Source: a virus
Length of the DNA stretch: 21,738 nt
Reading direction: 5' to 3' (one strand)
Virus record (IMG/VR): IMGVR_UViG_3300017991_000423
Span: 1-21,738 of that record
Of the stretch, positions 3,001 to 18,632 are shown in pieces. The stretch's first letter is position 1; each line of letters begins with the position of its first letter. The notes under the pieces were generated by a model, which ran no database searches, had not been told where the DNA came from, and worked only from the letters and a program-made list of their open reading frames with translations. Made by a program: the position numbers and the translations under genes.

Positions 3001-3621
3001 ATGGACGGCAAGACGTGGAGAGGCATGACGGAGGATCAGCGGGCAGAGTATATGGATCGGCTCAAGGCCGCTGTCGCTAGGGGGGATCTCGATCCCCGCA
3101 GGATTCCCCTCAAGAGCCGGCGCAATCATCGGGAGTTGTCCACGGGGTATGAGTGGCATTATCGCTACGATCCCACGGGGGATCGGATCATGCGGTTCGG
3201 GCCCGTCCTTAGAGGAGATCTCATCGTGGTCCCCTCTGACGTAATGCGGTTCAATCGCCCTTTGATCGAGGATCTCAAACGCAAGGGGTTCATCTGGCAC
3301 CCTGACGCCTACGAATGGCGGCGGTCCACCCTCCGTCCTTATAAGGGACGGATCTGGACACGTCGGCAATGGCTCATCGCCACCCGCCGGCTGTACTTCG
3401 AGTCCTGGATGGAATACGAGGATACAGTCCCCCCGGATCATCCTGATCTCGATGAGGATACCCGATGGGCGAATGATGAGTGGTGGGCCAGCGAGACGCC
3501 CCGCCCTCCCGCTGCGGACCCTGACGAGCAATTGGAGCGATTCCACGAGACCAAGGCAAAGGCGGCCAGGCTACGGGATGCAATTCTGACGGGGAAAGAA
3601 CTTGACGCTATAATCCGTTAA
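3001..3621 (+). CDS. Hypothetical protein, 206 aa; shares a domain with the 131-aa protein at 6950-7345
   Basis: The function is unknown. Residues about 75-145 (IVVPSDVMRFNRPLIEDL, KRKGF, YKGRIWTRRQWLIATRRLY) line up with the protein at 6950-7345 (IVIPTDV, GRRGF, YEGKRYSEIAWLRAARRLY), so the two are paralogues over that stretch. The protein is basic and Trp/Arg-rich, which would fit nucleic acid binding, but that is only an inference. The C-terminus is helical and charged. The ATG follows CCACAGATAGGAG by 8 bases. The TAA stop codon (3619-3621) lies inside promoter copy 3. Confidence 0.8.
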   Translation: MDGKTWRGMTEDQRAEYMDRLKAAVARGDLDPRRIPLKSRRNHRELSTGYEWHYRYDPTGDRIMRFGPVLRGDLIVVPSDVMRFNRPLIEDLKRKGFIWHPDAYEWRRSTLRPYKGRIWTRRQWLIATRRLYFESWMEYEDTVPPDHPDLDEDTRWANDEWWASETPRPPAADPDEQLERFHETKAKAARLRDAILTGKELDAIIR

Positions 3622-3629
3622 GGCTATAA
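3614..3629 (+). promoter_or_regulatory. Repeated phage promoter, copy 3, overlapping a stop codon
   Basis: TCCGTTAAGGCTATAA differs from the other six copies only in its last base. The upstream gene ends ATC CGT TAA, so the stop codon is part of the promoter. The leader to the next ATG (3675) is about 45 nt and contains CCACAGATA (3640-3648) and AAAGGAGG. Confidence 0.7.
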
Positions 3630-5010: not shown

Positions 5011-5047
5011 GCCCCCGGGGGGATGATCCCCCCGGGGGCTCTCTTTC
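5011..5047 (+). terminator. Rho-independent terminator after the DUF3150-like gene
   Basis: The 13-bp arms 5011-5023 (GCCCCCGGGGGGA) and 5027-5039 enclose a three-base loop, followed by TCTCTTTCGTT. It starts 8 bases after the stop codon. The next gene has no clear copy of the 16-base promoter, only a loosely similar TTCGTTGAGG at the end of this element. Confidence 0.8.
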
Positions 5048-6312: not shown

Positions 6313-6429
6313 ACGCCTGAGGATCATCAGGCACCCACCATCTCAAGGATACCACAGAATCCGCAGGAAGTCAATATCCTCGTCATCGAAACGGAAAACC
6401 CTGATCCTCTCAGTCCGTTAAGGCTATAG
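6313..6429 (+). pseudogene. 38-codon ORF with full leader and Shine-Dalgarno but ACG at the start position
   Basis: A hairpin, the CCACAGATA motif and AAGGAGG lead, with 5 bases of spacing, to ACG where other genes of this region have ATG. The frame stays open for 38 codons and reads like a protein end (QEVNILVIETENPDPL). Its TAG stop codon is the last three bases of promoter copy 4. Either it is a remnant that lost its start codon or a peptide using a rare ACG start. In the remainder of the 6252-6473 gap I see only the hairpin, this ORF and the next promoter and leader. Confidence 0.35.
6414..6429 (+). promoter_or_regulatory. Repeated phage promoter, copy 4
   Basis: Exact TCCGTTAAGGCTATAG followed by GGGG. 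With G6429 as +1 the message would begin with a hairpin (GGGGGA paired with TCCCCC around AAGATA), as T7 messages begin with a stem-loop. It is the first promoter of the regular promoter/ribozyme series. Confidence 0.8.
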
Positions 6430-6473
6430 GGGGAAAGATATCCCCCCATAGAATCCCCACAGAGGAGGATATC

Positions 6474-6860
6474 ATGCTGGCAGTCAAGGTGAGAATCAAG
6501 GTTCAGCCGCGAGATCTGACGACTCGACCATCCTGCGTCGAGGTCCGCCACGAGATGTACCGCTGGATGGATTCAGCGATTGGGATCAAGATCCCCCTCA
6601 GCCGCATCGATGTGGTGAGGATTGGCCCTAAGTACACGATTCGATTCTCTTTCGAGCCGACCCCTCTCCACCTGGAGGAATGCGAAGGTCTGGCGAAAGC
6701 ACATCGAGAAAAGCGAGAAGATGGTTTCGGGTTCACCAAGCCCGAGCGCTGGCTGGCTTACCTCTCCGAGGAGGGGACGATCGAGGCTCTCCACGATTCG
6801 GAGCTAGTCGAGCCGATCAGCAACACAGTATTGGCAACGGTCCACAGAGAGCAGGAATAG
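6474..6860 (+). CDS. Hypothetical protein, 128 aa (first gene of ribozyme unit 1)
   Basis: No family is recognised. It opens with a beta-like stretch (MLAVKVRIKVQPRD) and has a central YTIRFSFEPTPLHLEECEGL that suggests a small alpha/beta fold. The ATG follows CCACAGAGGAGG by 5 bases. It is the only gene between promoter 4 and hammerhead 1, and the last base of its TAG stop codon (6860) is the first base of ribozyme stem II. A terminating ribosome would therefore sit on the ribozyme's GAAA strand. Confidence 0.8.
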   Translation: MLAVKVRIKVQPRDLTTRPSCVEVRHEMYRWMDSAIGIKIPLSRIDVVRIGPKYTIRFSFEPTPLHLEECEGLAKAHREKREDGFGFTKPERWLAYLSEEGTIEALHDSELVEPISNTVLATVHREQE

Positions 6861-6927
6861 ACGAAACGGGGGGATCTGATCCCTCCGTCATCTCAGGATG
6901 GCTACCTGAGATCTGATGAGTCAAGCC
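6860..6927 (+). ncRNA. Type II hammerhead ribozyme 1
   Basis: All core parts are present in type II order. Stem II is GAC (6860-6862) with GTC (6920-6922). GAAA is 6863-6866. Stem III is 6867-6876 with 6878-6887 (one wobble; the loop is probably opened to 3-5 nt). The cleavage triplet GUC is 6887-6889, with the cut predicted between 6889 and 6890. Stem I is ATCTCAGG (6890-6897) with CCTGAGAT (6905-6912), and CTGATGA is 6913-6919. Loop I GGCT (6900-6903) can pair with AGCC (6924-6927), a pseudoknot as expected in this class. The cut would be 29 nt after the upstream stop codon and 60 nt before the next ATG. Confidence 0.93.
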
Positions 6928-6949
6928 TTATAGAGAGAGGATCAGGACG

Positions 6950-7345
6950 ATGCGACAGTATGCGGACCCATGCGTCCAGGCGAAAGCGGACGAGCGCCGA
7001 TCATGGGCAGCCACCCTCTGTCAAATCTCGATGGAGCGAGGGCCCGTGATCACGAACGTCTCTCCCACATATCGAGATGAGGATCAGCGCCGAGCGATCG
7101 TCATCCCCACGGATGTCTACAATCCAGAAGCCCCGAAGATCTACGGACGGCGAGGCTTCCGCTACGACAAGATCGAGGGAGGCCAGTGGTATCGGTTCCT
7201 CGATGAGCCCTACGAGGGCAAGCGCTACAGCGAGATCGCCTGGCTCCGGGCAGCACGCCGGCTGTATCGGCAGGTCTGGCCCCATTGGGAGCCCCCGTTC
7301 GATGTCCAGGGAGAGGAGGGATCAGGTGAATCGACGACAGGTTGA
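6950..7345 (+). CDS. Hypothetical protein, 131 aa; shares a domain with the 206-aa protein at 3001-3621
   Basis: Residues about 45-120 (IVIPTDV, GRRGFRY, YEGKRYSEIAWLRAARRLYRQVW) match the same motifs and order in the larger protein at 3001-3621, so these are paralogues; the function is unknown. The N-terminus here is unrelated. The start ATG is preceded by TTATAGAGAGAGG, a variant of the common leader, and lies 60 nt after the predicted ribozyme cut. Its end overlaps the next gene by 20 bases, so translation of the pair is likely coupled. Confidence 0.8.
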   Translation: MRQYADPCVQAKADERRSWAATLCQISMERGPVITNVSPTYRDEDQRRAIVIPTDVYNPEAPKIYGRRGFRYDKIEGGQWYRFLDEPYEGKRYSEIAWLRAARRLYRQVWPHWEPPFDVQGEEGSGESTTG

Positions 7346-7667
7346 GAAAGCGATGAGGATCTACGAGGAGGGCCAGGCAGGGAGGATCGATCTTGATCTG
7401 TGGGATCGGTTCTTCTCCGTGGATCGCCCCAGGATCGAAGTCCCCATCAGCCAGGCGGCCGCCCTCATCGGATGGCAGGCCATGCAATTTGATGGCAATT
7501 GGTCATCCTGGATGCTCAACGACATCCTGGACGCCGGCCTCCGTCATCGATGCCAGATCCTCGATGACTACACGCCGCCGGAAGTCCTGGCCCGCAGGGC
7601 CCGTGAGGCGGAGTTCGGAAAGCCCGTCCCCTCGATGCCGCTCCAGCGGCAGATCCGCCAATCTTGA
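7326..7667 (+). CDS. Hypothetical protein, 113 aa
   Basis: I chose the GTG at 7326, which has GAGAGGAGG 6 bases upstream; the frame is open further left but that part overlaps the previous gene and is not protein-like. The product looks helical and soluble (RRQVEKAMRIYEEGQAG at the N-terminus, then ISQAAALIGWQAM and a basic tail). No family is recognised. It is the last gene of ribozyme unit 1 and is followed by the first of three near-identical hairpin-promoter cassettes. Confidence 0.75.
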   Translation: MNRRQVEKAMRIYEEGQAGRIDLDLWDRFFSVDRPRIEVPISQAAALIGWQAMQFDGNWSSWMLNDILDAGLRHRCQILDDYTPPEVLARRAREAEFGKPVPSMPLQRQIRQS

Positions 7668-7674
7668 GAAATTC

Positions 7675-7704
7675 GATCCCCCTGGAGGAAAGGCCAGGGG
7701 GATC
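7675..7704 (+). terminator. Cassette hairpin A1
   Basis: GATCCCCCTGG (7675-7685) pairs over 11 bp with 7694-7704; the loop is AGGAAAGG. Nearly identical hairpins are at 8602-8631 and 9470-9499, each 3 bases before a promoter core. There is no real T run (ACTTCC), so it may end transcription imperfectly, or protect the 3' end of the message. Confidence 0.6.
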
Positions 7705-7707
7705 ACT

Positions 7708-7723
7708 TCCGTTAAGGCTATAG
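7708..7723 (+). promoter_or_regulatory. Repeated phage promoter, copy 5
   Basis: Exact TCCGTTAAGGCTATAG directly after cassette hairpin A1. The leader from G7723 to the ATG is 34 nt and contains CCACAGAGAATAGGAG. Confidence 0.8.
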
Positions 7724-7756
7724 AGGATAAATCTTTCCCACAGAGAATAGGAGAGG

Positions 7757-8113
7757 ATGATGAGTCTGGTCACAACCAATGATTATCTGGTCTGGATCGT
7801 GGGCAAGGTCAATACAGAGCTGTATGATAAGCTGGAGAAGCCCCGCACGGTCCTGGATCTGACGCAGGACGTCGATGAGACGGTCCAGTTCGCTATGGGC
7901 GGACGGGGGATGCTCTTTGAGCAGACCCAGGTTCAGGAGATCGGAGAGCATCGATTCTCATTCCTCCTGATGGTGGAGACGCCCAAAGATCCCCAGGATT
8001 TCAAGGATAACATCTCCGTTGCCCTGGAAGTCAGCGAGATCTTCTCCACGATGATGCGCCTCGATGTCGTCCTCCTGGGGACCTATCCCATAGGGAGCAA
8101 GCGAGAGCGATAA
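7757..8113 (+). CDS. Hypothetical protein, 118 aa (first gene of ribozyme unit 2)
   Basis: No family is recognised. It begins with a hydrophobic beta-like stretch (YLVWIVGKVNTELYDKLEK), carries an acidic middle, and ends VVLLGTYPIGSKRER. Two adjacent ATGs (7757 and 7760) are possible; the second has better spacing to AGGAG. The last base of the TAA stop codon (8113) is the first base of hammerhead 2, the same arrangement as in ribozyme unit 1. Confidence 0.8.
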   Translation: MMSLVTTNDYLVWIVGKVNTELYDKLEKPRTVLDLTQDVDETVQFAMGGRGMLFEQTQVQEIGEHRFSFLLMVETPKDPQDFKDNISVALEVSEIFSTMMRLDVVLLGTYPIGSKRER

Positions 8114-8182
8114 GGCGAAACGGAGGGTTGGAGGGCCCTCCGTCATCTCAGGATGGCTACCTGAGATCTGATGAGCCTAGCC
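8113..8182 (+). ncRNA. Type II hammerhead ribozyme 2
   Basis: Stem II is AGGC (8113-8116) with GCCT (8175-8178), the longest of the three at 4 bp. GAAA is 8117-8120. Stem III is CGGAGGG (8121-8127) with CCCTCCG (8136-8142). GUC is 8142-8144 and the cut is predicted between 8144 and 8145. Stem I is 8145-8152 with 8160-8167, and CTGATGA is 8168-8174. Loop I GGCT can pair with AGCC (8179-8182). The 40 bases 8136-8175 are identical to 6881-6920 in hammerhead 1, while the 5' arm of stem III differs yet still pairs. The cut is 31 nt after the stop codon and 60 nt before the next ATG. Confidence 0.93.
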
Positions 8183-8204
8183 CCACAGAGAGAGGATTCG
8201 ATCA

Positions 8205-8597
8205 ATGGAACCGAAACTACTGGCAGACATAGCGACCACAATCTACAAGTCCAAGGAAAGAAACGTCCAGGCCGCAGAGGATGATCCCATCTCTGAGGAG
8301 TTGGGAGTCACGGCATGGGCGGCTGGAGCAGCCCACAGCGCAGGCGTCAAGGCATTCGTCTCTGCCTGGAATGGCGCAGGGATCTCGTTCCGTGATCTGA
8401 TGGAAGTCCTTGAGGCCAGGATCTCCGCCGAATTGGCGGCGCTTGGCCGGCCCCTGGAGATCGACGACGAGCCCCCTCTGAGTTTTGAGGTAATGGGGTT
8501 CGTTTATGACATCCTCGCTAATCAACGACAGGGGGCGATCCTGGCGCAAGCGGATCTGACCTACATCTGGAACCCTGAGGATGAGGAGGTTCGCTAG
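8205..8597 (+). CDS. Hypothetical protein, 130 aa (second gene of ribozyme unit 2)
   Basis: The protein is probably all-helical and Ala-rich (LGVTAWAAGAAHSAGVKAF in the middle). A segment AFVSAWNGAGISFRDLMEVL resembles EIVKIWNEAGVPVADVIFYL in the next gene (8700-9071), hinting at distant paralogy. The function is unknown. The ATG follows CCACAGAGAGAGG by 9 bases, and the 5' end of its message would be made by hammerhead 2 rather than by a promoter of its own. Confidence 0.78.
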   Translation: MEPKLLADIATTIYKSKERNVQAAEDDPISEELGVTAWAAGAAHSAGVKAFVSAWNGAGISFRDLMEVLEARISAELAALGRPLEIDDEPPLSFEVMGFVYDILANQRQGAILAQADLTYIWNPEDEEVR

Positions 8598-8601
8598 ATT
8601 C

Positions 8602-8631
8602 GATCCCCCTGGAGGAAAACCCAGGGGGATC
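8602..8631 (+). terminator. Cassette hairpin A2
   Basis: GATCCCCCTGG (8602-8612) pairs with 8621-8631; the loop is AGGAAAAC. It is the second copy of the 11-bp cassette hairpin, preceded by ATTC after the stop codon and followed by ACTTCCGTTAAGG as at 7705. Confidence 0.6.
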
Positions 8632-8634
8632 ACT

Positions 8635-8650
8635 TCCGTTAAGGCTATAG
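8635..8650 (+). promoter_or_regulatory. Repeated phage promoter, copy 6
   Basis: Exact TCCGTTAAGGCTATAG followed by GGGG, as in copy 4. The start of the message can form a short hairpin (GGGGG with CCTCCC). The leader is 50 nt with CCACAGAGAGAGGAG (8677-8691). Confidence 0.8.
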
Positions 8651-8699
8651 GGGGAAAGACATCCTCCCATAGATTCCCACAGAGAGAGGAGCAAGGACG

Positions 8700-9071
8700 A
8701 TGACGCAGCATCAGAAAGCGGAGCAAACAGCGGCCAGGATGATCGCTCTATATCAGATGATGACCGAGGATCTTGAGACCAAATCGGAGGGCTCGATCCT
8801 GGAGATCTATCGGGAAGCGGAGACGGAGATCGTCAAGATCTGGAACGAGGCAGGGGTTCCCGTGGCGGACGTGATCTTCTACCTGGATCTGGCATCGATG
8901 GAGCAATGGATCGAGACGTCGCATCCTGATCGTGAGGGGTTCGTCCCGTGGGGGAGATCGACGTCCATCTTTTTGCGCCAGACGCTCACCGATGCGAAGC
9001 ATCTGGACATCGCCCCGATCCTCTCCGCAGCGGATCATGAGTTCCTCGCTGATCTGGAGGAGCAGAACTAG
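8700..9071 (+). CDS. Hypothetical protein, 123 aa (first gene of ribozyme unit 3)
   Basis: Soluble, acidic and mainly helical (EQTAARMIALYQMMTEDLE near the N-terminus). It shares a WNxAG-centred segment with the protein at 8205-8597. No family is recognised. The ATG is 8 bases after AGAGAGGAG. Its TAG stop codon ends one base before the first base of hammerhead 3 (stem II at 9073). Confidence 0.8.
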   Translation: MTQHQKAEQTAARMIALYQMMTEDLETKSEGSILEIYREAETEIVKIWNEAGVPVADVIFYLDLASMEQWIETSHPDREGFVPWGRSTSIFLRQTLTDAKHLDIAPILSAADHEFLADLEEQN

Positions 9072-9072
9072 A

Positions 9073-9137
9073 GCCGAAACTCCCCCTGAGGGGGGAGTCA
9101 TCCAGGGGCGGCCATCCTGGATCTGATGAGGCAGGCC
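9073..9137 (+). ncRNA. Type II hammerhead ribozyme 3
   Basis: Stem II is GCC (9073-9075) with GGC (9130-9132). GAAA is 9076-9079. Stem III is CTCCCCC (9080-9086) with GGGGGAG (9091-9097). GUC is 9097-9099 and the cut is predicted between 9099 and 9100. Stem I is ATCCAGG (9100-9106) with CCTGGAT (9116-9122), and CTGATGA is 9123-9129. Stems I, II and III all differ in sequence from copies 1 and 2 yet pair fully. The pseudoknot is GGCC (9110-9113) with GGCC (9134-9137), a compensated change from GGCT/AGCC. The cut is 28 nt after the stop codon and 63 nt before the next ATG. Confidence 0.93.
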
Positions 9138-9162
9138 ACCACAGAGAATAGGAGAGTTGATC

Positions 9163-9465
9163 ATGTGGTTGACAGTGAGTAGGACGGTCTTTGTGCGGGA
9201 CATCGATGGCATGCTCCATCAGAAATCGGACGAGGAGATTGCCATCCTCAGGGGCACCAACCCTTTGGGCGTCCAGATCGCCATCTTTGAGGCGATGATC
9301 AAGGAGGATGTCAAGGCAGCCGGAATCCACAAGGCAGAGGTCACGGTCGAGGAGCTGTACTCAGAGAGCAATCAGCACATCGACCCGATGGTCAAGGCGA
9401 TCCAGTTCACATCGCTTGAGGAGGGCGATGATCGAGAGATCCTCTATTCCCTGAGTGAGCGATAG
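9163..9465 (+). CDS. Hypothetical protein, 100 aa (second gene of ribozyme unit 3)
   Basis: I chose the ATG at 9163, 8 bases after AGGAG; a TTG two codons upstream is also possible. The product opens with a beta-like stretch (MWLTVSRTVFVRDIDGML) followed by helical acidic sequence (VTVEELYSESNQH). No family is recognised. The leader CCACAGAGAATAGGAG begins two bases after the ribozyme pseudoknot strand. Confidence 0.75.
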   Translation: MWLTVSRTVFVRDIDGMLHQKSDEEIAILRGTNPLGVQIAIFEAMIKEDVKAAGIHKAEVTVEELYSESNQHIDPMVKAIQFTSLEEGDDREILYSLSER

Positions 9466-9469
9466 ATTC

Positions 9470-9499
9470 GATCCCCCTGGAGGAAAGGCCAGGGGGATC
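9470..9499 (+). terminator. Cassette hairpin A3
   Basis: GATCCCCCTGG (9470-9480) pairs with 9489-9499; the loop is AGGAAAGG, identical to A1. It begins 5 bases after the stop codon and is followed by TTCTCCGTTAAGG. Confidence 0.6.
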
Positions 9500-9502
9500 T
9501 TC

Positions 9503-9518
9503 TCCGTTAAGGCTATAG
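9503..9518 (+). promoter_or_regulatory. Repeated phage promoter, copy 7
   Basis: Exact TCCGTTAAGGCTATAG. It drives the last + strand gene; the leader is 36 nt and can start with a small hairpin (GGGA/TCCC). The leader motif is the variant CCATAGAGAGAGGAG. Confidence 0.8.
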
Positions 9519-9553
9519 AGGGAAAGATCATCCCATAGAGAGAGGAGTCCAAG

Positions 9554-9820
9554 ATGGCAACACTACTCAAGGTGCAACGCGCAGCCGCATACTTCACAAG
9601 TCCAAAGGGCAAGCCCAATCATCGGATCATCCACGTCCACGAGGGCCCTGGAGATGCCTGGACCATCGAATTGATTGGAGGGCATCCACCCAGGACTAGA
9701 TCAGAGCAGACCACATTCACCCGGAGAGAAGCGCTGATGTACTACCTCATCGAGATCGGCAAGCTGGTCATGGCTGGCTATCAGCCAGAGACCGTGGACA
9801 AGTTCCCCCAGGAGATTTGA
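9554..9820 (+). CDS. Hypothetical protein, 88 aa
   Basis: A small basic protein with a beta-rich first half (HRIIHVHEGPGDAWTIELIG) and a helical second half (REALMYYLIEIGKLVMAGY). It resembles small DNA- or RNA-binding phage proteins in general build only, and I do not recognise a family. The ATG follows GAGAGGAG by 7 bases. It is the last gene before the convergent terminators and has no ribozyme after it. Confidence 0.75.
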   Translation: MATLLKVQRAAAYFTSPKGKPNHRIIHVHEGPGDAWTIELIGGHPPRTRSEQTTFTRREALMYYLIEIGKLVMAGYQPETVDKFPQEI

Positions 9821-9831
9821 GCAGAACAGAC

Positions 9832-9868
9832 GCCCCCCTCGCCTCATCGGCGAGGGGGGCTCTTTTTT
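9832..9868 (+). terminator. Strong terminator closing the + strand gene block
   Basis: GCCCCCCTCGCC (9832-9843) pairs over 12 bp with 9849-9860; the loop is TCATC, followed by TCTTTTTT. It is the best intrinsic terminator in the window and ends the whole + strand series. Confidence 0.92.
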
Positions 9869-9911
9869 CGTTCAACACATTTACCACGGGCTGCGTGCCT
9901 GATGTATCCAA

Positions 9912-9955
9912 CAGAGGAGGAGGGCGACACCGGTCCAGTCCGCCCTCCTCCTCTG
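9912..9955 (-). terminator. Long hairpin between the converging gene blocks
   Basis: CAGAGGAGGAGGGCG (9912-9926) pairs perfectly over 15 bp with 9941-9955, with a 14-base loop. It lies about 50 bases past the end of the last - strand gene and is the likely stop signal for that block, although neither side has a clear T run. The remainder of 9869-10005 shows only a weak AGAGAG/CTCTCT pairing. Confidence 0.6.
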
Positions 9956-10005
9956 CACCTCTCAAGTTTTAGAGAGCCCCTCCAGATAAATGGATCACCC
10001 CCTCT

Positions 10006-10347
10006 CTATTCGGTCGGTGGCTCTGGCTTACTCCAGAAGAAATTGCCAAGGATGTTGTGGAAGTAGTTCGATCCCCTCCCGATGAGGAGTCCCGTCAGGA
10101 TGTAGCCGACCCATGCCGGATCCGGCCGGATCTTGCTGATCTCTCCGATCACGTCCAGCTCATACGCCAAGGCAAGGATACATCCCACGAGGAGGGCCAG
10201 GTATTTCGGGATCTCTTTGATCCCAGGGAACCGCTGCCTCGATTCCTCTGAGAACCAAGGCTTGACGAAATACTCGACCGCCCCCTCCACCGTTGCGGCC
10301 AGGATGAATGCCACAAGCAAGGGCCCTGCCAATTCTGAGATCTCCAC
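10006..10347 (-). CDS. Holin-like membrane protein, 113 aa
   Basis: It has three hydrophobic segments: LLVAFILAATVEGAVEYFV (about 10-28), YLALLVGCILALAYEL (about 49-64) and WVGYILTGLLIGRGSNYF (about 79-96), with a charged tail. Size, topology and position at the end of the tail/lysis block fit a phage holin, which would make pores in the host membrane at the end of infection. The start is GTG with TAGGAGG 6 bases upstream. The preceding gene encodes another membrane-anchored protein, so the pair may work together. Confidence 0.7.
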   Translation of the reverse strand: MEISELAGPLLVAFILAATVEGAVEYFVKPWFSEESRQRFPGIKEIPKYLALLVGCILALAYELDVIGEISKIRPDPAWVGYILTGLLIGRGSNYFHNILGNFFWSKPEPPTE

Positions 10348-10357
10348 GATCCACCTC

Positions 10358-10735
10358 CTAGAAAATGCCGGCGAGTTTGGCGGCGATGATGCCCATCGCT
10401 AGACCTTGGAAGATATTCCATACGATCCCCCAATTCACCCCAAACCGCCTGACCTGCTCTTTGATTCTGCCTGAGTATTCCGGATCTGTGACGCAAGGGA
10501 GGCGCTCAAAGGATCGGGAGACGATCGCCATATCTGCCTGCTGATGAGCGAGGGTTTCTGCATGCTCCCGCACCGTCCCATTGATCCGATCTACCTTTGC
10601 CTCCACCCTACCTATCTGCCCCTCGATCCGATGGATCTGCTCCCGCCGCTTTTCAGCGCTCGAATCGATCTTCGCCTCAAGGAGTTCGCGCAGCATATCT
10701 AAATGCCGCATGAGTTGAGTTTCATCTAAAGCCAT
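10358..10735 (-). CDS. Coiled-coil protein with C-terminal membrane segment, 125 aa (XhlA-like)
   Basis: A long charged helix (about residues 1-85, LMRHLDMLRELLEAK and EGQIGRVEAKVDRING) is followed by a hydrophobic C-terminus (WGIVWNIFQGLAMGIIAAKLAGIF). This layout is that of haemolysin/XhlA-type proteins that accompany holins. I chose the ATG at 10735, which overlaps the upstream stop codon (TGATG) and has GAGG 8 bases upstream; an ATG seven codons earlier has no ribosome site. It probably helps lysis or anchors something to the membrane. Confidence 0.7.
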   Translation of the reverse strand: MALDETQLMRHLDMLRELLEAKIDSSAEKRREQIHRIEGQIGRVEAKVDRINGTVREHAETLAHQQADMAIVSRSFERLPCVTDPEYSGRIKEQVRRFGVNWGIVWNIFQGLAMGIIAAKLAGIF

Positions 10736-12444
10736 CACTCTATCCTCACCACCCATAGATCAACGACCGCATCTCCGATCTTGCCAAAGATCCTCCACCC
10801 ATCCTGCGGCGTCGGACTTGGCGTAGGTGTGGCTGTAGGTGTGACCGTCGTCGTAGGCGTCGCTGTCGCCGTGGCCGTCCCCGTCGATGAGGGAGAGGGC
10901 GAGGGCGTCGCCGTGCTGGTTGTCGTCGGTGATGGAGTATCCGTCGCTGTCGCCGTAGGCGTCGCCGTGGGGATCTCCAGAGGGCGCACTTCGACCCGGT
11001 GGACGTATTGATCATCCTCGATCATCACGGATCGTCCGTCCGGCTGCACCCATACATCCAGTCTGCCATTGGGCCGCATCACTCTGATCTCTGCTGGGCC
11101 CTCCACCGTCGTCGTCAGGACCACGGGGGCCCTGCGGGCAACCCATCCTCGATAAGATGTCGTCACATTCCATCCAAGACCGCTAGATGTTGCCGCTATA
11201 ACGTTCCTGGCCCAATCGCCTCTCTCTCCGCAATAAGCACCCCCTATCCCGTACCATGCCTCGCATCTCGACGTATCCAACTCCCTGGCTACCCACAGAG
11301 CCGCCTCAGGATGGGCCAGCATATACTCTGTGGTCTCCCGCCATTCCTGGCCCACAGAGGAGGCGAGGGTTTCCCTTTGAGCGTGGATCTGCTGGGCCCC
11401 GTGGGTGACTGCCCATAGCCAGGCCAGCGCTGCCATATCCCCCTCGTACTTCCAGGATTGCTCAGCCAGAAACACAGTTTGAGTATACACAAGCGGGACC
11501 ATCCAGTCAACGTTGAGAGGATCGACCGTGTTACAGACGCCGCCCCAGGAGTTGCCCCGGCATTGCCCAGGGTAGAGCCCGCTGGTCATCAGACCCATCC
11601 CCAGGCTGTCAATCGTGGCGGCCGCCCTCCCGATCTCCGTGGAGGAGAACCCGAATCCCGAGTAATGCCCCGCCACGAAAGATTCTGAGAACGCATCCTC
11701 CCATGTAGTATAGGCGGTGGTTTCGTATGTGGCCCACGTAGCAGAATTGAGGCCGGCGACCATGTAAGCAGTCCAGCACTCAGCCCCGACGTCCTTACAG
11801 AATCGCCGTTCCCCATCGTCACCGATGTTTGCCATGATCACGGGGACTTTCCCATCGTAGCGCCGACCGAATGCCCTGATCCATCGATAGATGAGGGCCC
11901 TGAGCTGAGGGTTGGCGTAATCGGGACCACAGCCAGGGCGAGGCCCTTGCCAGCAAACGGAGGGCCAATCCCCGGGCAGGGCCGGCGGGGCCCCCGTATA
12001 GGTCTCATTTTGCCACATCAGGCCCGGGACGTAGGTGATCCCCTGGACTTCTGAGTCCCTGAGGAGTTGATCCAGGACGGGGCAGATGAGCTGCTCCTCA
12101 TCGCCTACGCCCTCCAGCCCGCATTGCGATGCCGGCAATCTCTTTGCCGCCATCGAGATCCCATACTTGACGGCGATCTCTGGAGGGCTCTCCTGGGCGA
12201 CGAGGCCCCAGGGCAGATCGTTCGGTTCGGTCAAGATCGGCCAGCCGGGGTTTCCATTTGCTGCGGCGGACGGGGATGAGCCAGACATCCCGAAAACCGA
12301 CTCAACCCAGGGCAGGATTGTAGGCGAGGGCTCCGGGCCCGGCTCACCCCCGGCCGCATCAGCATATTGGAAAGATATCCCCGCTATAGCGAGGATGAGA
12401 ATCGCAAGACAAACGGCAACCTTGAACCTTGTTTCGGCATCCAT
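10735..12444 (-). CDS. Large secreted or membrane-anchored protein, 569 aa, glycosidase-like, with Thr/Pro linker
   Basis: The N-terminus has a signal sequence or anchor (VAVCLAILILAIAGISFQYADA, about residues 9-30). The main domain (about 60-430) has a pattern I associate with TIM-barrel glycosidases (LIYRWIRAFGRRYDGKVPVI, then GDDGE), but no family can be fixed by eye. Ten cysteines occur after the signal, so disulfides and an extracellular location are likely. Residues 492-547 are a Thr/Pro/Ser/Ala linker, followed by a 22-residue end. It lies between tail genes and holin-like genes, so it could be the cell-envelope hydrolase for lysis, or a protein that changes the host surface. The start has AGGAGG 8 bases upstream. 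Confidence 0.75.
   Translation of the reverse strand: MDAETRFKVAVCLAILILAIAGISFQYADAAGGEPGPEPSPTILPWVESVFGMSGSSPSAAANGNPGWPILTEPNDLPWGLVAQESPPEIAVKYGISMAAKRLPASQCGLEGVGDEEQLICPVLDQLLRDSEVQGITYVPGLMWQNETYTGAPPALPGDWPSVCWQGPRPGCGPDYANPQLRALIYRWIRAFGRRYDGKVPVIMANIGDDGERRFCKDVGAECWTAYMVAGLNSATWATYETTAYTTWEDAFSESFVAGHYSGFGFSSTEIGRAAATIDSLGMGLMTSGLYPGQCRGNSWGGVCNTVDPLNVDWMVPLVYTQTVFLAEQSWKYEGDMAALAWLWAVTHGAQQIHAQRETLASSVGQEWRETTEYMLAHPEAALWVARELDTSRCEAWYGIGGAYCGERGDWARNVIAATSSGLGWNVTTSYRGWVARRAPVVLTTTVEGPAEIRVMRPNGRLDVWVQPDGRSVMIEDDQYVHRVEVRPLEIPTATPTATATDTPSPTTTSTATPSPSPSSTGTATATATPTTTVTPTATPTPSPTPQDGWRIFGKIGDAVVDLWVVRIE
10804..10971 (-). repeat. Low-complexity repeat encoding the Thr/Pro linker
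   Basis: A run of short imperfect units (on the + strand, variants of GGCGTCGCTGTCGCC) encodes 56 residues made almost only of T, P, S and A. Such linkers separate domains in secreted proteins and are common in Chloroflexota. Repeats like this tend to vary in length. Confidence 0.8.
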
Positions 12445-12469
12445 CGGAGACTTCCTCCTGAGATCTTCG

Positions 12470-13804
12470 CTAGCTGTCCGTCCATAGCAATTTGAACCGA
12501 GGCGTGATGATCTCTCCGCCTGCCCTCGTGACTGAGACGTGGACTTCGATGATCCTGACGGCGAACTGATAATCCCGATAACGAGCCGTCACCAGATCCC
12601 CTAGATCCCAATGCTCCCGATACATAGCGTTGCAGTTCTTGAGGTAGTCAAACTGGAATTGGATCGTCCTCGTGTAACGGGCGAGGAAAGCGTCTCCCTC
12701 ATCCTGGAGCCTGGCCGTCGCTGTGAACTGGCGCCGATCGTAGAATGCCTCCCGCCGGCTCCACGGGGTTTCCGCCGTTGAGACGGCATCCTCTCGTTCG
12801 ACGATGGTCCTGGAGGCTCCTGATCCCCCTCCGCCGACGTAGATCAGGTTGCGGACGTTGAGCCAATCCTCGACCACCTCAGGATAGGCCATATTTGCCC
12901 GATCCACGGAGAAGATGACGGGATCATTCCCGTCCGTGTTTGTGACGGTCTTGTCTGCTCCCCTCCGTGGGTAATAGGCTCTGAACTCGTAGGTAGCAGG
13001 GCCCGTACCGATGATAGCGAAGTCCGCCCCGCTGTCGCTCAGATCTTGCATCGCCGTGAGCACGTTGATATAACGCCACTTCTTGCTCATCACGGGCCCT
13101 GTATGATCGTCTGCCTCCACAGCGAAGCCAGGAGCCTGCCGATCCAGGGATGCCCCTGCGCCAAGGTGAGAGTAAGCGAGATCTCGCATGATATCGGTCA
13201 GCTCATCCGGTCCGTACTCATCGTAGGGTTCATCGTCGGATGTCTGATAGATGTACGGGCCCTCTGGAGGAACCGTCACTCGCCTGGAGAGCAGCTCCTC
13301 GTAAGCCCGTCCGATGGATGAAAACATATCCCGATCACTCTCATCCATCCACCAGCGCCGGCGGCGATGGAAGCCCTCCCAATCGAGGAGCCAATCCCCT
13401 CCTGGAGTCCGCCTCCAGATCTCGACCTGCGCATCAGGGATGAAGTATTCGATCCGTGGATCATCCGCCACGAGGGGTAACTCATAGTAGCCGATGGCGT
13501 TGAGTTGCCGGCTGTACTCCAGCCTGGCCGTCCGATCCGTCAGGGGGATAACGGCAACCCTTTGCCCCGAATGGTTCTTGATCCAGACGGCGTAATCGGC
13601 ATCCTCGACCAGGCAATCCTCATAGACGAATGGTGGCGTGGGTTCCGCCTCCGCCGCATCGTACTCCACGTAGGCATCAGGGAAGGGATTCGCCCCCGTG
13701 AAGATGTTGAATTGCCCCGTTGATTTGGTCCGTGGAGGAGTCCCCCCAATCCATAGCGGAAGGCGTCCACCGATCCAAGAGTCAAAGTCTCCCCAATTCT
13801 TCAT
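12470..13804 (-). CDS. Tail protein, ReqiPepy6 Gp37-like (baseplate hub/Tal type), 444 aa
   Basis: A segment with ARLEYSRQLNAIGYYELPL, VEIWRR, and LDWEGFHRRRRWWMD followed by YEELLSRRVTV has the order of motifs typical of Gp37-like tail proteins and tail hub proteins of siphoviruses. The late part has beta-rich sequence ending FKLLWTDS. It would sit at the tail tip and link tail tube, fibres and spikes. Its ATG overlaps the stop codon of the first tailspike gene (TAATG). Confidence 0.75.
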   Translation of the reverse strand: MKNWGDFDSWIGGRLPLWIGGTPPRTKSTGQFNIFTGANPFPDAYVEYDAAEAEPTPPFVYEDCLVEDADYAVWIKNHSGQRVAVIPLTDRTARLEYSRQLNAIGYYELPLVADDPRIEYFIPDAQVEIWRRTPGGDWLLDWEGFHRRRRWWMDESDRDMFSSIGRAYEELLSRRVTVPPEGPYIYQTSDDEPYDEYGPDELTDIMRDLAYSHLGAGASLDRQAPGFAVEADDHTGPVMSKKWRYINVLTAMQDLSDSGADFAIIGTGPATYEFRAYYPRRGADKTVTNTDGNDPVIFSVDRANMAYPEVVEDWLNVRNLIYVGGGGSGASRTIVEREDAVSTAETPWSRREAFYDRRQFTATARLQDEGDAFLARYTRTIQFQFDYLKNCNAMYREHWDLGDLVTARYRDYQFAVRIIEVHVSVTRAGGEIITPRFKLLWTDS

Positions 13805-15225
13805 TAGTCCGCCTGGATGAATAGGTTATCCCACAGAGTCCCGTCAGCGCCGCCGTTCGTGTTCCTGGAGACCAGCTCCACCACAAACCAGGGGGGAGAG
13901 GCCGCAGGCGTCCAGGTGTGCGTCAGCTCATTCCAGGCCCCCGCCGCCCCTGCGTCAACGATCTCGATCGTGGTCTGGCCTGGCTGGATGATCCTGATCT
14001 GAGGATTCGAGCCGGCGTAGTTCGCCTCTCGATAGACTCGACAGGTCAGGGTGTGACTTGCCGCCTCCGCCTGAACCCAAAACTGCTGCCGGCCGGCGTC
14101 ATCCTCTCGATTCGATCCTGATCCCTCATAGACCGTCGTCTGCTCCAATTCCTTCGGCACCCACTGAACCGCCCCCGGTGTTATCTTGCTGGTTGTCACT
14201 GGCCTGGTTTTTCCAAAGAAGTCGCTGCTGGATGAACCTGCAAACCCATCTTGTTTAGCCGCAGACAGGTTGTCAGGCACCCACCATTCGCGCCAGGGCA
14301 TCATAAACCCGCCCGTCAACAGGTCCGGCGACCCATACATAGGTATTATAACTGTACTTGGGCCGCTGGTATTATGACCGCCGTCAGTCCCACCAAATAA
14401 GGGTAGCGCACACCCGTGCGCCCAGTTATAATCATAATCAACGTTATTTATCATGTACAGCCCATAGCTACCACCAAAGACGATGCTGTTGTTAATATCC
14501 CCATCGGCAACGGTACCCGAAAAACGAAGGCAATAGGAGTTAGGCCCCCAGTATCTCTGATGCACTGTGCAATTTCTTATGACTGACCCTGTATCAGTAT
14601 TATGTAGATTGACGCCACCGATGCCCGGGAACAAAAGCAGGCAATCCTCGACAACCCAATTCTCGTTATGGTCGCCCCATAACGTATACGAATAGATACC
14701 CTCCCCAACCTGTCCGTCTATGAAGCAACATCGGCGGATTTCCCAATCATCCGCCGAATCTCCGTTTGCCCCATCACAATAAATACCGCGGTCGTAGTCC
14801 TGGAACGTACAGTCCTCCACAACCCACCCATCAGAACCGTCGCCACCACCTACGTCGATAATGCGACCTGAGACCATGTCAAAGGTGAACCCGATGAAAC
14901 TTCTGTAATCGCGTTTCGCCGCTGTAGCGTCCACGCATGACGCCCTGGTTATTGCTTGGTCGTCATCCGAACCCGTGACACGCACCGCGCCACCGACCCC
15001 GTCCGTTCGGTGGCCTATCCAGTCACCCTCGTAGGCAATGAGATTCCCCGCACCGCCTGACACATCGACCGTAAGGGTTTCCCGGTATACACCCGGGCCT
15101 ACGATGACGAGATCCCCTGCTACGACCGGGATATCCTCAGCTCCATTGAGCGTGAGCTTTCGATCTGCCCAGGAGGTACCGGCGTTCCCATCATTGCCAC
15201 CCTTGCCGACGTAGTACGTTGTCAT
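13804..15225 (-). CDS. Right-handed beta-helix tailspike-like protein A, 473 aa
   Basis: It opens MTTYYVGKGGNDGNAGTSW and GDLVIVGPGVYRETL, the typical beginning of parallel beta-helix (pectate-lyase-like) proteins. It continues with repeated VVEDC/IRNC turns (residues about 125-260) and ends in a jelly-roll-like domain (DAGAAGAWNELTHTWTPA). It probably binds or cuts a host surface polysaccharide. I chose the ATG at 15225, which overlaps the upstream stop codon (ATGA) and has AGAGGTGG; a start ten codons earlier lies inside the previous gene. It is a tandem paralogue of protein B: both ends are alike, the middle is not. The middle is GATC-free, unlike the flanks. Confidence 0.85.
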   Translation of the reverse strand: MTTYYVGKGGNDGNAGTSWADRKLTLNGAEDIPVVAGDLVIVGPGVYRETLTVDVSGGAGNLIAYEGDWIGHRTDGVGGAVRVTGSDDDQAITRASCVDATAAKRDYRSFIGFTFDMVSGRIIDVGGGDGSDGWVVEDCTFQDYDRGIYCDGANGDSADDWEIRRCCFIDGQVGEGIYSYTLWGDHNENWVVEDCLLLFPGIGGVNLHNTDTGSVIRNCTVHQRYWGPNSYCLRFSGTVADGDINNSIVFGGSYGLYMINNVDYDYNWAHGCALPLFGGTDGGHNTSGPSTVIIPMYGSPDLLTGGFMMPWREWWVPDNLSAAKQDGFAGSSSSDFFGKTRPVTTSKITPGAVQWVPKELEQTTVYEGSGSNREDDAGRQQFWVQAEAASHTLTCRVYREANYAGSNPQIRIIQPGQTTIEIVDAGAAGAWNELTHTWTPAASPPWFVVELVSRNTNGGADGTLWDNLFIQAD

Positions 15226-16631
15226 GCGTCCACCTCTACTTTCAGGTCGTCCCAATTGACAGTGTAGTCACCCGCCCCCGCAGAATTTCTCGATTGAAGC
15301 ATGACCTGGACCCAGGGAGGAGAGGCCGCAGGTGTCCAGGTGTGGGTAAGGAGATTCCATGCCCCCGCTGCCCCCGCATCCACCACTTCGATCTCAGATT
15401 GCCCAGGCTGGCGGATCACGACCCGCGGATTTGAGCCGGCGTAGTTTGCCCCTCGACGAGCGTAGACTTCCAGGGTGGCGGAGGATGCCCCCACAGGGAC
15501 GAGGAAGGTCTTGATGCTGGCATCATTCATCAGACCCGATGCCCCTGAGGCCCCTCGATAGACCGATCCATCCCGCTCAAAATCCTGATACTGGATCGCC
15601 CCCCAGGAGCGCTTGCCATTCGTGGCAGGGAAGGGGAGCCCGAACAAGTCGCCGCCCGATGGCACCGTGCCCGAATCCGTCAACCGGCGATACGCCGACC
15701 ATTGCGACAGGAACGGAAAACGCACCGGCGTTTTTACACCCTCCTGTAGTAAGGGAGTTTCCCACAATGGAGCGTAGGTAACAGAGTTAGCTCCCACGGC
15801 TACATCTGCGTCTCGGTCTGCAGCGTTGTTGTACAAACCGTTATAATCTTCCACCAAATCACCCGGGGCCGCTGCTCTCATACCATAGAAATTTTGATTG
15901 AAAATGCAGTTTTCTACTGACATATATTGGGCTCCGCCGTTGTTTGCGGCCGCATTAACAGCGTCATAGCATCCGATGAACGTACAGTTAAGAACTTCCC
16001 ATGTGCCCTGGAAGACATAGAACCCGGTCGTGCTTGCATGTCCTCCCAAAAACACGCATGATTCTAATACGTCCCCCGTAGCCCCGTTGTGGGCACTTCC
16101 AGATGTGCGTATAGCGTATGTAACGGCGATAAACATGCATCGACGTATAGCCCAGTCATCCCCAATGGTACTGGCATAAATGCCGTGCGAATTGACGTTC
16201 ATAAAAACACAATCTTCTATAACCCAGCCATCCTTATCGCCCACACCGCCGTCTACTGCCATTATAGCGTCATCAGTCCATCCCATGATAAGATTGCGCC
16301 AGGTTCTGTAATGGAAAGCTACAAGTCCAGCCGTGTCAATGCAGTGTGTACGTACCTCCGATATATCGTCATCGGAACCCGTGATTATAACCTTGCCGCC
16401 GATGCCGTCGGTCCTATACCCCGAACGGTCCCCTTCGTAGGTTATCGGATTGCCGGCTGTGCCCGTGACATCACATTGCAGCGTTTCCCGATAGATACCA
16501 GGGCCGATTATCACCGTATCGCCAGGGACTACACGGACATCCTCTGCTCCATTTAGCGTGAGCTTACGTGTCGCCCACGATGTACCGGCGTTCCCATCAT
16601 TGCCGCCCTTGCCGACGTAGTAGGTGGTCAT
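15222..16631 (-). CDS. Right-handed beta-helix tailspike-like protein B, 469 aa
   Basis: Same build as protein A: MTTYYVGKGGNDGNAGTSW start, GDTVIIGPGIYRETL, a helix body with VIEDC, IRRC, LESC and VENC turns (about residues 130-265), and a C-terminal beta-sandwich with YAGSNPRVVIRQPGQ and DAGAAGAWNLLTHTW. The start has AAGGAG 8 bases upstream. From 15598 to 16679 there is no GATC, whereas flanking genes have one every 40-50 bases, which suggests foreign origin. No catalytic residues can be assigned by eye. It probably forms trimeric spikes for host recognition. Confidence 0.85.
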   Translation of the reverse strand: MTTYYVGKGGNDGNAGTSWATRKLTLNGAEDVRVVPGDTVIIGPGIYRETLQCDVTGTAGNPITYEGDRSGYRTDGIGGKVIITGSDDDISEVRTHCIDTAGLVAFHYRTWRNLIMGWTDDAIMAVDGGVGDKDGWVIEDCVFMNVNSHGIYASTIGDDWAIRRCMFIAVTYAIRTSGSAHNGATGDVLESCVFLGGHASTTGFYVFQGTWEVLNCTFIGCYDAVNAAANNGGAQYMSVENCIFNQNFYGMRAAAPGDLVEDYNGLYNNAADRDADVAVGANSVTYAPLWETPLLQEGVKTPVRFPFLSQWSAYRRLTDSGTVPSGGDLFGLPFPATNGKRSWGAIQYQDFERDGSVYRGASGASGLMNDASIKTFLVPVGASSATLEVYARRGANYAGSNPRVVIRQPGQSEIEVVDAGAAGAWNLLTHTWTPAASPPWVQVMLQSRNSAGAGDYTVNWDDLKVEVDA

Positions 16632-16643
16632 AGAAGCAACTCC

Positions 16644-16886
16644 TTACATTTTTAGCCGGAAACCAACTCCAGAGGCAGGGATCGACGATCCCATGCCAGA
16701 GAGCCCGCTGAGGCCATGATTGACCGTGATCGTGGAGACGTCATCATCGAAACCAGGGACGTCCTCCCCATCGCCTAGCCATTTGTCCCATCGCTTCATT
16801 GGGCCAGATTCAGGCTCCAGCGCATCGAAGTTCTTGTGCTTGGTGATCCATTTGTCGAACTTCTGTTCCCACGTTTTCTTTGCCAT
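16644..16886 (-). CDS. Small hypothetical tail-module protein, 80 aa
   Basis: The basic, Trp-rich N-terminal half (KTWEQKFDKWITKHKNFDAL) and the glycine/serine-rich end (GLSGLSGMGSSIPASGVGF) fit a small structural or assembly protein. I chose the ATG at 16886 with GAGG upstream; a TTG two codons before is less likely. The 125 bases before it (16887-17011) hold a hairpin (TCCGCC 16912-16917 with GGCGGA 16922-16927) and no gene that I can support. Confidence 0.65.
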   Translation of the reverse strand: MAKKTWEQKFDKWITKHKNFDALEPESGPMKRWDKWLGDGEDVPGFDDDVSTITVNHGLSGLSGMGSSIPASGVGFRLKM

Positions 16887-17011
16887 GAGCAATCCTCGAT
16901 AAATGGCCTTCTCCGCCCCGTGGCGGATTCTGGATCGAATTCGACGCCCGGTTGATCTACTCCTCGCTGCTAAAGCCCCAGGCTACTCAGGGGAGAGATT
17001 CTCAGGGGATC

Positions 17012-17659
17012 TCAGTCCACCGGGATGATCAGGGGGATAACGATCCTGTAGTAGATGTTGACGTTATCGCCCGACCATGCCACTTGCGTCTTTTGGGCCT
17101 CCAGCCTCAAGGTGTAGGTGCCGGCCGCTTGGGCGGCGAATAGCTCCTGGACAAAGTGGTGCTCCACGGTGGAGAGGGTGTTGCCGATGTTGCCCGTCCC
17201 CGTGGAGGAGCCAGTAACGCCAGCTCCACCGAGAGTCCATCGAAAAGCCTGTCCATTCGTCCTGGCCGCCGTCGAGTTATTCCATGTGACATCAGAGAGG
17301 ATCACCACATCCGACTTGCGCCTCAGGGTGATCGTGGTCGATTGGGTATCCTGCTGCCAGTTGTTATTGGCAGCCATATTCCAGGCTACTTGATTCTGCC
17401 AGAGGGCAGGGACGAAGGTTTGAGCCTCCAGGGTGAGCGCCCCGAATGAGACCACATCGGCAGGGAACTCCGCAGAGGCGTTGAGGGCGAGGAGATAGTT
17501 CGCCGTGGGAACCGCCGATGCGTGGAATCCATCCACCGTATCGGCATCCCCTCCGCCCCCGCCCTCTGCCTCAGTCTCCAGATGGGCAACTCTCATCCTG
17601 AGATCCTCGATCTCTCTGAGGATCGCTGAGAAGTCCGTCCGCCCCAGGGATTCCGTCAT
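17012..17659 (-). CDS. Fibre-like protein with coiled coil and C-terminal beta domain, 215 aa
   Basis: Residues about 8-33 (FSAILREIEDLRMRVAHLE) form a short trimerising coiled coil. GGGGGDADTVDGFHASAV follows, a motif very common in phage tail fibres. The rest looks like a beta-sandwich (TITLRRKSDVVILSDVTW; GTYTLRLEAQ; VNIYYRIVIPLI), comparable to C1q-like heads. It is probably a receptor-binding or accessory fibre. One base separates its ATG from the stop codon of the collar-fibre gene. Confidence 0.7.
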   Translation of the reverse strand: MTESLGRTDFSAILREIEDLRMRVAHLETEAEGGGGGDADTVDGFHASAVPTANYLLALNASAEFPADVVSFGALTLEAQTFVPALWQNQVAWNMAANNNWQQDTQSTTITLRRKSDVVILSDVTWNNSTAARTNGQAFRWTLGGAGVTGSSTGTGNIGNTLSTVEHHFVQELFAAQAAGTYTLRLEAQKTQVAWSGDNVNIYYRIVIPLIIPVD

Positions 17660-17660
17660 C

Positions 17661-18614
17661 CTACGCCGTCCTCATGATATAGCAGAGCGCATGGTAGGGC
17701 GGCAGCGAGGAGCTGCTCCCCGTATTCCCATTGACACCATGTTGGTGAGATACGCTGTTGCTTATGGCGTGATAATGGTTCGTTCCTGTACAGACGAGTG
17801 CTCCCGTTCCCTCCTGATAGAGCGTTATGGGCGCTGTAGCATAGGCCGTTTGGCCCCCATGGTTATGGACGCCGCCCAGGTCGCTGGGAATCGCTACCGT
17901 ATGGGTATGGGTGACGGCTCCGCCTGTCGCCCCGACCGCATAGCCGGATCCGGCACCGACCACGAACTTATCCTGGAGATCTGGTGTTCCTCCAGTCCCA
18001 TCGCAGAGCTGCCAGTTCGTAGGGATCGCCCCCACAGCGCCCGACCAGAGGATGATCCCCCCAACGGGGACGAATACCCCGTCAGCGAGCTTGGCTTCTG
18101 TGACCGCCCCGTCCTCGATGTTGGCGGTCCCGATCTCGATTGGAGGGCGTGCCCATCCTCTCTGATCGGTGATCGTCATCACGGCAAGGGTGGTGATCGA
18201 GACTTGACAGAGGGGGAGATCCCAGGTGACGCCATCGGTCTGCGTCAGCGCCGGCGCTCCAGCGCCCTCGACGCCAGCGATGCGGGTGATCCGCACCGTC
18301 TGAGCCGCCCATCCCTTCCTAAGAACGATCCTGTCAACCCGCGTATCGCCAACGGGCGTCGGGATGTTGACATTGACCGCCGTCGAGTTGCGATAGCGGG
18401 AGCCATCCACCCATCCGCCGCCCGTATCTATCTGGATCGTATTGGCCCCAGCGTTGGTGGGTTCAAGTTCGTTGAGGAATCCCTTAGCGATCCCCCGGGT
18501 AGCCTGCTCGTCCCCGTTCCATTCCATCTGGAGCATATCGGTCCAGTTGTCGTCTGAGTAGGGACCGTCATCCCCTGCTACACTTCCAGTCCACGGCAAA
18601 CTCGTCTCAGCCAT
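17661..18614 (-). CDS. Tail fibre with phage tail collar domain, 317 aa
   Basis: The C-terminal half has the collar-domain signature: GGIILWSGAVGAIPTNWQLC, CDGTGGTPDLQDKFVVGAG, then THTHTV, HNHG, HYH and HQHG metal-binding-like histidine clusters and the end LPPYHALCYIMRTA. The first 170 residues are a beta-rich shaft (QIDTGGGWVDGSRY) of the kind found at the base of such fibres. It would bind the host surface. The start has GGGAGG 9 bases upstream. Confidence 0.88.
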   Translation of the reverse strand: MAETSLPWTGSVAGDDGPYSDDNWTDMLQMEWNGDEQATRGIAKGFLNELEPTNAGANTIQIDTGGGWVDGSRYRNSTAVNVNIPTPVGDTRVDRIVLRKGWAAQTVRITRIAGVEGAGAPALTQTDGVTWDLPLCQVSITTLAVMTITDQRGWARPPIEIGTANIEDGAVTEAKLADGVFVPVGGIILWSGAVGAIPTNWQLCDGTGGTPDLQDKFVVGAGSGYAVGATGGAVTHTHTVAIPSDLGGVHNHGGQTAYATAPITLYQEGTGALVCTGTNHYHAISNSVSHQHGVNGNTGSSSSLPPYHALCYIMRTA

Positions 18615-18632
18615 CTTTCACATCCTCCCGCT

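Follow-up and report, generated by a model that had tools for sequence, protein, structure and literature searches.

Three elements in a 21.7-kilobase (kb) fragment of a tailed phage (IMG/VR record IMGVR_UViG_3300017991_000423, positions 1 to 21,738; hereafter the window) are confirmed, from their core, stems and Rfam matches, as genuine type II hammerhead ribozymes and extend a known class by new members. We think it quite probable that, in a nascent transcript of two or three genes, they cut behind the first gene and ahead of the second; such between-gene processing is the best-supported function and, with comparative data on its side, the likely one. The three ribozymes, numbered here by position, lie within 2.3 kb on one strand, each between co-directional genes and directly behind a stop codon. 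A first-pass annotation, made from the letters of the DNA, had placed three type II hammerheads between genes in a series of promoter-led cassettes, and its anatomy is right; the function that it proposed is probably right as well.

The Infernal search that this annotation had suggested as a check was run with all Rfam families and returned three plus-strand matches to RF02276 (Hammerhead_II), one of them sub-threshold: 9072-9140 with 53.8 bits, 8113-8186 with 38.5 bits and 6859-6931 with 31.9 bits. No further RF02276 match was found elsewhere in the window. The core pattern CGAAAC-GTC-CTGATGA likewise occurs at exactly three sites in the window, against 0.02 expected from shuffles. In all three ribozymes the catalytic core is intact (CUGAUGA, CGAAAC and the GUC cut site), stem III closes the GAAA and UH strands, and the elements follow one order: 5' strand of stem II, GAAA, stem III, UH, stem I, CUGAUGA, 3' strand of stem II. 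Stems I and III are closed by loops and stem II is open, which is the type II layout. Stem II is 3-4 base pairs (bp) long, stem III 7-9 bp and stem I 8 bp. The sequence of stem II varies while its pairing is kept (GAC/GUC, GGC/GCC and GCC/GGC in ribozymes 1, 2 and 3), and stem III differs in sequence in each ribozyme, a pattern expected from selection on structure. Stem I is identical in ribozymes 1 and 2, which are therefore probably copies. A pseudoknot between loop I and the 3' tail is possible in each case (GGCU/AGCC, 4 bp, in ribozyme 1; GGCUA/UAGCC, 5 bp, in ribozyme 2; GGCC/GGCC, 4 bp, in ribozyme 3); such a contact is frequent in the class, though not general, and according to the main text of Perreault et al. 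2011 it gives many type II ribozymes their speed (PMC3088659). Other Rfam matches (His_leader, MIR528, GlsR13) were below threshold and look like terminator or hairpin matches, or chance.

The predicted cuts, at 6889/6890, 8144/8145 and 9099/9100, lie 29, 31 and 28 nucleotides (nt) past the preceding stop and 60, 60 and 63 nt ahead of the next ATG, exactly the sites and spacings (28-31 nt; 60, 60 and 63 nt) of the first-pass annotation; the third downstream gene has an alternative TTG start at 9157. Each cassette begins with a repeated 15-mer, TCCGTTAAGGCTATA, a putative promoter present in seven copies. Units 4, 5 and 6 consist of promoter, gene, ribozyme, one or more genes and hairpin, and unit 7 of promoter, gene and terminator. 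The end hairpin (GATCCCCCTGG...CCAGGGGGATC) is near-identical in the three units that it closes, stands 3 nt ahead of promoters 5, 6 and 7, and has no T run. Sequence, repeats, hairpins and terminator thus agree with the order claimed earlier for promoters 4-7. In ribozyme 1, the outermost position of stem II can be filled by G6860, with which the preceding TAG stop ends. The features are as follows.

142-156, 2856-2870 and 3614-3628, +: putative promoter copies 1, 2 and 3, ahead of the ATPase gene, the gene at 3001 and the DUF3150-like gene
6414-6428, +: putative promoter element 4, the 15-mer, exact repeat; predicted start G6429, predicted 5' hairpin at about 6429-6446 by leader folding
6474-6860, +: gene before ribozyme 1, 128 amino acids (aa); open reading frame (ORF), codon-position GC like that of other genes; no Pfam or PHROG match
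6859-6931, +: type II hammerhead 1, predicted cut 6889/6890; RF02276 match, core and stems; possible pseudoknot of 6900-6903 with 6924-6927
6950-7345, +: gene after ribozyme 1, 131 aa; ORF
7326-7667, +: second gene after ribozyme 1, GTG start at 7326, overlapping the preceding gene; from sequence reading and codon-position GC
7675-7704, +: end-of-unit hairpin 1, without T run; from sequence
7708-7722, +: putative promoter element 5, exact repeat
7757-8113, +: gene before ribozyme 2, 118 aa; ORF; no Pfam or PHROG match
8113-8186, +: type II hammerhead 2, predicted cut 8144/8145; RF02276 match, core and stems; possible pseudoknot of 8155-8159 with 8178-8182
8205-8597, +: gene after ribozyme 2, 130 aa; ORF
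8602-8631, +: end-of-unit hairpin 2; from sequence
8635-8649, +: putative promoter element 6, exact repeat; predicted 5' hairpin at about 8650-8668 by leader folding
8700-9071, +: gene before ribozyme 3, 123 aa; ORF
9072-9140, +: type II hammerhead 3, predicted cut 9099/9100; RF02276 match, core and stems; possible pseudoknot of 9110-9113 with 9134-9137
9163-9465, +: gene after ribozyme 3, 100 aa; ORF
9470-9499, +: end-of-unit hairpin 3; from sequence
9503-9517, +: putative promoter element 7, exact repeat, of a single-gene unit without ribozyme
9554-9820, +: last gene of the rightward block, 88 aa; ORF
9832-9860, +: intrinsic terminator with a 12 bp stem and T run, predicted from sequence

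Under the proposed mechanism, each cassette would be transcribed from its own copy of the phage promoter, and the ribozyme would fold while emerging and cut co-transcriptionally 28-31 nt past the first stop. Hammerhead reactions leave 5'-hydroxyl and cyclic-phosphate ends. By analogy with this known chemistry, stem III would form the 3'-terminal hairpin of the upstream message, which would carry a 2',3'-cyclic phosphate, and the downstream message would start at a 5'-hydroxyl followed by the hairpin of stem I. Most pieces would then be bracketed by hairpins, namely a predicted leader hairpin (on most primary transcripts), the ribozyme stems and the end-of-unit hairpin, so that neighbours sharing one promoter could differ in stability and translation; such independence would be the benefit of the arrangement. 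The RNase III sites of T7-like phages similarly cut a multi-gene transcript between genes and leave hairpin-protected ends. The role proposed here is alike, except that the window transcripts would be cut by the RNA itself, with 5'-hydroxyl and cyclic-phosphate ends, and not by a host protein. In RiboJ-type insulators a hammerhead trims off the upstream part of the transcript so that the gene is preceded by a hairpin, making expression less dependent on upstream context; those devices are engineered from a satellite-RNA hammerhead and sited after the promoter, whereas the window elements are natural, of type II and between genes. Cassette duplication was considered as the origin of the repeats and is rejected, since the three cassettes encode dissimilar proteins.

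To place these ribozymes in a wider context, type II hammerheads were collected by pattern from IMG/VR, with a second, independent set taken from GTDB genomes, giving 231 non-redundant ribozymes among the matches listed (140 on viral contigs and 91 in bacterial genomes). The patterns required an exact core with the cut-site GUC fixed, and the larger scans also fixed the 3' tail GCAGCC; because of these exact core patterns, and of counts restricted to the matches listed, the two sets are samples and not censuses. ORFs of at least 60 codons were called mechanically rather than by a gene finder. Among the matches listed, to which the following ribozyme counts also refer, the GAAA strand lies 0-10 nt past a stop codon in 100 of the 140 viral and 66 of the 91 genome ribozymes (71-73%). 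Random same-strand sites fall in this range in 3.9% (viral) and 4.2% (genome set) of cases, look-alike CGAAAC sites outside ribozymes in 5.8% and 4.7%, and [AG]GCGAAAC sites in 4.7% and 7.4%; the look-alike control was limited to non-ribozyme CGAAAC sites, the all-site version being contaminated by further array ribozymes. The next start codon follows the end of CUGAUGA at a median distance of 20 nt; the space between the two genes is thus taken up by the ribozyme. The survey of these pattern matches shows that phages in general place type II hammerheads right behind stop codons.

The abutment of ribozyme and stop codon suggests that translation might control cleavage. A terminating ribosome would cover the GAAA strand and hold the ribozyme open, and cleavage would be limited to messages that are translated poorly and to run-off messages; the ribozyme would then be a translation-sensitive switch rather than a constant processing device, which could either replace or be added to between-gene processing. 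We regard ribosome gating as possible, if doubtful. It would fit the geometry of the window, where stem II can include the final stop-codon base (ribozyme 1) or begins 0-1 nt past it (ribozymes 2 and 3). Stop anchoring is also seen in gaps that are not tight: with at least 100 nt free, 10 of 19 ribozymes still lie no more than 10 nt from the stop, against 1.4 expected, and the GAAA strand is never upstream of the stop in 166 cases. However, proximity to the stop may simply reflect compact genomes or a need for a short 3' tail, many ribozymes of the phages Marav and Salutena (described below) begin 15-44 nt past the stop, and type II hammerheads can cut fast, possibly ahead of the first ribosome. 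A broader proposal takes type II hammerheads as a general translation-gated phage punctuation built onto the stop codon, in which ribosome occupancy controls the separation of messages, one ribozyme per gene is for some phages the main route to single-gene messenger RNAs (mRNAs), and the window phage adds a dedicated phage-polymerase promoter per cassette. In this full form the proposal appears unlikely.

Between-gene processing, the reading that we prefer, is also supported by long arrays. The densest array met, in IMGVR_UViG_3300017605_000570 (region 8500-19500), has 24 significant hammerhead matches in 7.6 kb on one strand. Reading these one by one, we found nearly every ribozyme separated from the next by one short gene, with the stop of the gene at the first bases of the ribozyme and the next start within about 2-11 nt. 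Other array records have 4-11 hammerheads each. Arrays are also present in isolated Streptomyces phages, with 14 matches in Marav, 12 in Salutena, 11 in Alvy and 8 in Hank144, in one block of small genes per genome, and the Rhodobacter phage RcWaterboi has one hammerhead, between the gp19 stop and the gp20 start. The stretches examined in these five records carry no ribozyme annotation. Ribozymes lie wholly between annotated genes in 13 of 13 cases examined in Marav and 10 of 12 in Salutena, compared with 10% and 6% of random 65-nt stretches. Among 25 orthologous genes of these two divergent phages, a ribozyme follows in both phages for 10, in only one for 1 and in neither for 14 (Fisher p = 3.4e-6). 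In several of the orthologous ribozymes, two-sided changes preserve stems I and III. Shared junctions together with two-sided stem changes indicate that ribozyme structure is maintained at given junctions.

These observations bear on two further explanations. The ribozymes could be hitchhiking or selfish RNA motifs without present function, found between genes since insertion elsewhere would kill genes. Local copying does happen, as the identical stem I of ribozymes 1 and 2 indicates, and four of the seven promoter units manage without a ribozyme; even so, we consider lack of function improbable, given the intact cores and compensated stems of all three window copies, the junction-specific conservation with double changes in Marav and Salutena, and a stop-proximal bias that, where room is available, exceeds what intergenic location alone would give. 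It has also to be considered that pieces with 5'-hydroxyl and cyclic-phosphate ends from successive hammerheads might be ligated to circular messages, as in retrozymes, and in arrays like the one with 24 ribozymes each piece would carry two ligatable ends. In the window, a piece with a ribozyme at both ends would need readthrough of the hairpin and the next promoter, and the presence of one ribozyme per promoter unit disfavours circularisation there. Perreault et al. sought circular and spliced products and, according to their main text, saw none (PMC3088659). Circular messages are thus very unlikely. The placement rule, the arrays of up to 24 ribozymes and the culturable Streptomyces phages with 8-14 make the functional question directly testable by RNA-end mapping. 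If processing is confirmed, there are phages in which RNA-based mRNA processing takes the place of protein-based processing at almost all gene junctions within an operon.

Several points weigh against between-gene cleavage by the window ribozymes. The curated gathering score of RF02276 is 37 bits, which ribozymes 2 and 3 exceed and ribozyme 1, at 31.9 bits, does not (single-family E 1.2e-6). In minimum-energy folds, computed with the pseudoknot omitted, alternatives beat the hammerhead fold by 4-6 kcal/mol in all three, and in ribozyme 3 the alternative disrupts stem I. Part of the stop-codon rule is compactness, as gaps are tight; for densely packed arrays this accounts for much of it. No close relative of the window phage was found with the protein encoded at 7757-8113, the ATPase and the DUF3150-like protein as queries, so the argument from conservation does not extend to these three ribozymes, whose cleavage we infer.

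The first-pass annotation had held regular between-gene use of type II hammerheads, paired with one promoter element, to be undescribed. For the general idea this is wrong: type II hammerheads were found by Perreault et al. 2011, whose main text describes clusters that flank prophage genes and proposes processing to single-gene mRNAs (PMC3088659). It also reports cleavage of three tandem arrays while they were transcribed in vitro, and for one of these cleavage on expression in E. coli as well (PMC3088659). The window shares with those prophage hammerheads, as presented there, the class (RF02276), the type of pseudoknot and the clustering around phage genes; its ribozymes are on one strand, flank single genes or short blocks, and belong to a phage contig with tail genes. 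It differs from them, to the extent covered in that text, in having one ribozyme per promoter-defined cassette at a fixed position, and we regard the cassette layout as a new form of a known arrangement. Neither the stop-codon rule nor very long arrays were found stated in the main text of that paper (PMC3088659), and no statement of the rule or of arrays this long was found in the open-access literature, with subscription journals and preprints largely uncovered. As this coverage is mainly open-access, novelty of the placement rule is claimed with reserve. A 2017 review called the role of hammerheads in bacteria and phages an open question (PMC6155905).

The pairing of ribozyme and promoter is real in units 4-6, as had been claimed, yet it is one-sided: promoter units 1, 2, 3 and 7 (four of seven) are without a ribozyme, so the promoter requires none. 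All seven copies of the 15-mer are exact, on the plus strand and each ahead of a gene, where shuffles lead to an expectation of 0.19 even with up to three mismatches allowed. The motif is contiguous and sharp-edged, and its terminal CTATA adjoins the presumed start; flanking bases are unconserved, and the next base is G in six copies and A in one. Copy 3 includes the stop codon of the preceding gene, and copy 1 shares bases with the T run of a terminator-like hairpin. Downstream of the presumed start, the leaders fold into more stable structures than shuffles do (summed energy -45.3 versus -18.0, standard deviation 4.6), and in five of the seven leaders base 1 or 2 is paired in the predicted fold. 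Known promoters of single-subunit phage RNA polymerases are that of VSW-3, TTAATTGGGCCACCTATA, and that of T7, TAATACGACTCACTATA, both with the start at G (PMC9624206). The 15-mer shares their format, a contiguous stretch of about 15 bp with the presumed start right after TATA, but is unlike the T7 and VSW-3 promoters in sequence, and the window phage has long-tail genes. A gene for a single-subunit polymerase (PF00940) was not found in the 21.7-kb fragment, in a search whose control was also silent, and for that reason it is by analogy that we infer a single-subunit phage polymerase promoter. Sigma-70 promoters at the repeated motif were considered and rejected, with only one marginal match near any copy; that match ends at the border of copy 3. 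A strong terminator at 5011-5039 lies 3' of the DUF3150-like gene, and the next gene, encoding a methyltransferase, has no copy of the motif before it. The proteins encoded at 3001-3621, after promoter 2, and at 6950-7345, after ribozyme 1, are related (33% identity over 86 aa, E 4e-7).

The ribozyme locus belongs to the final third of a rightward block at the left of the window, which encodes an AAA ATPase, a DUF3150-like protein, a DNA methyltransferase and small proteins without known families, and which terminates at the intrinsic terminator 9832-9860. A leftward block at the right encodes tape measure, distal tail, minor tail and beta-helix proteins. No DNA match to the window was found among isolated phages. 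The promoter 16-mer, tried as a trace of relatives, gave six contigs with one match each, which looks like chance. A contig related by a distant tail protein (L271) has neither ribozymes nor the promoter motif; its region 8431-9483, minus strand, encodes by appearance a candidate type III CRISPR RAMP (Cas7-like) protein. In the window, the tandem beta-helix proteins at 13804-15255 and 15222-16631, minus strand, share 41% identity and are probably duplicated tail-associated proteins. The protein encoded at 10735-12444, minus strand, has a long Thr/Pro linker (TPTATATDTPSPTTT...) in a style common in Chloroflexota, which may hint at the host.

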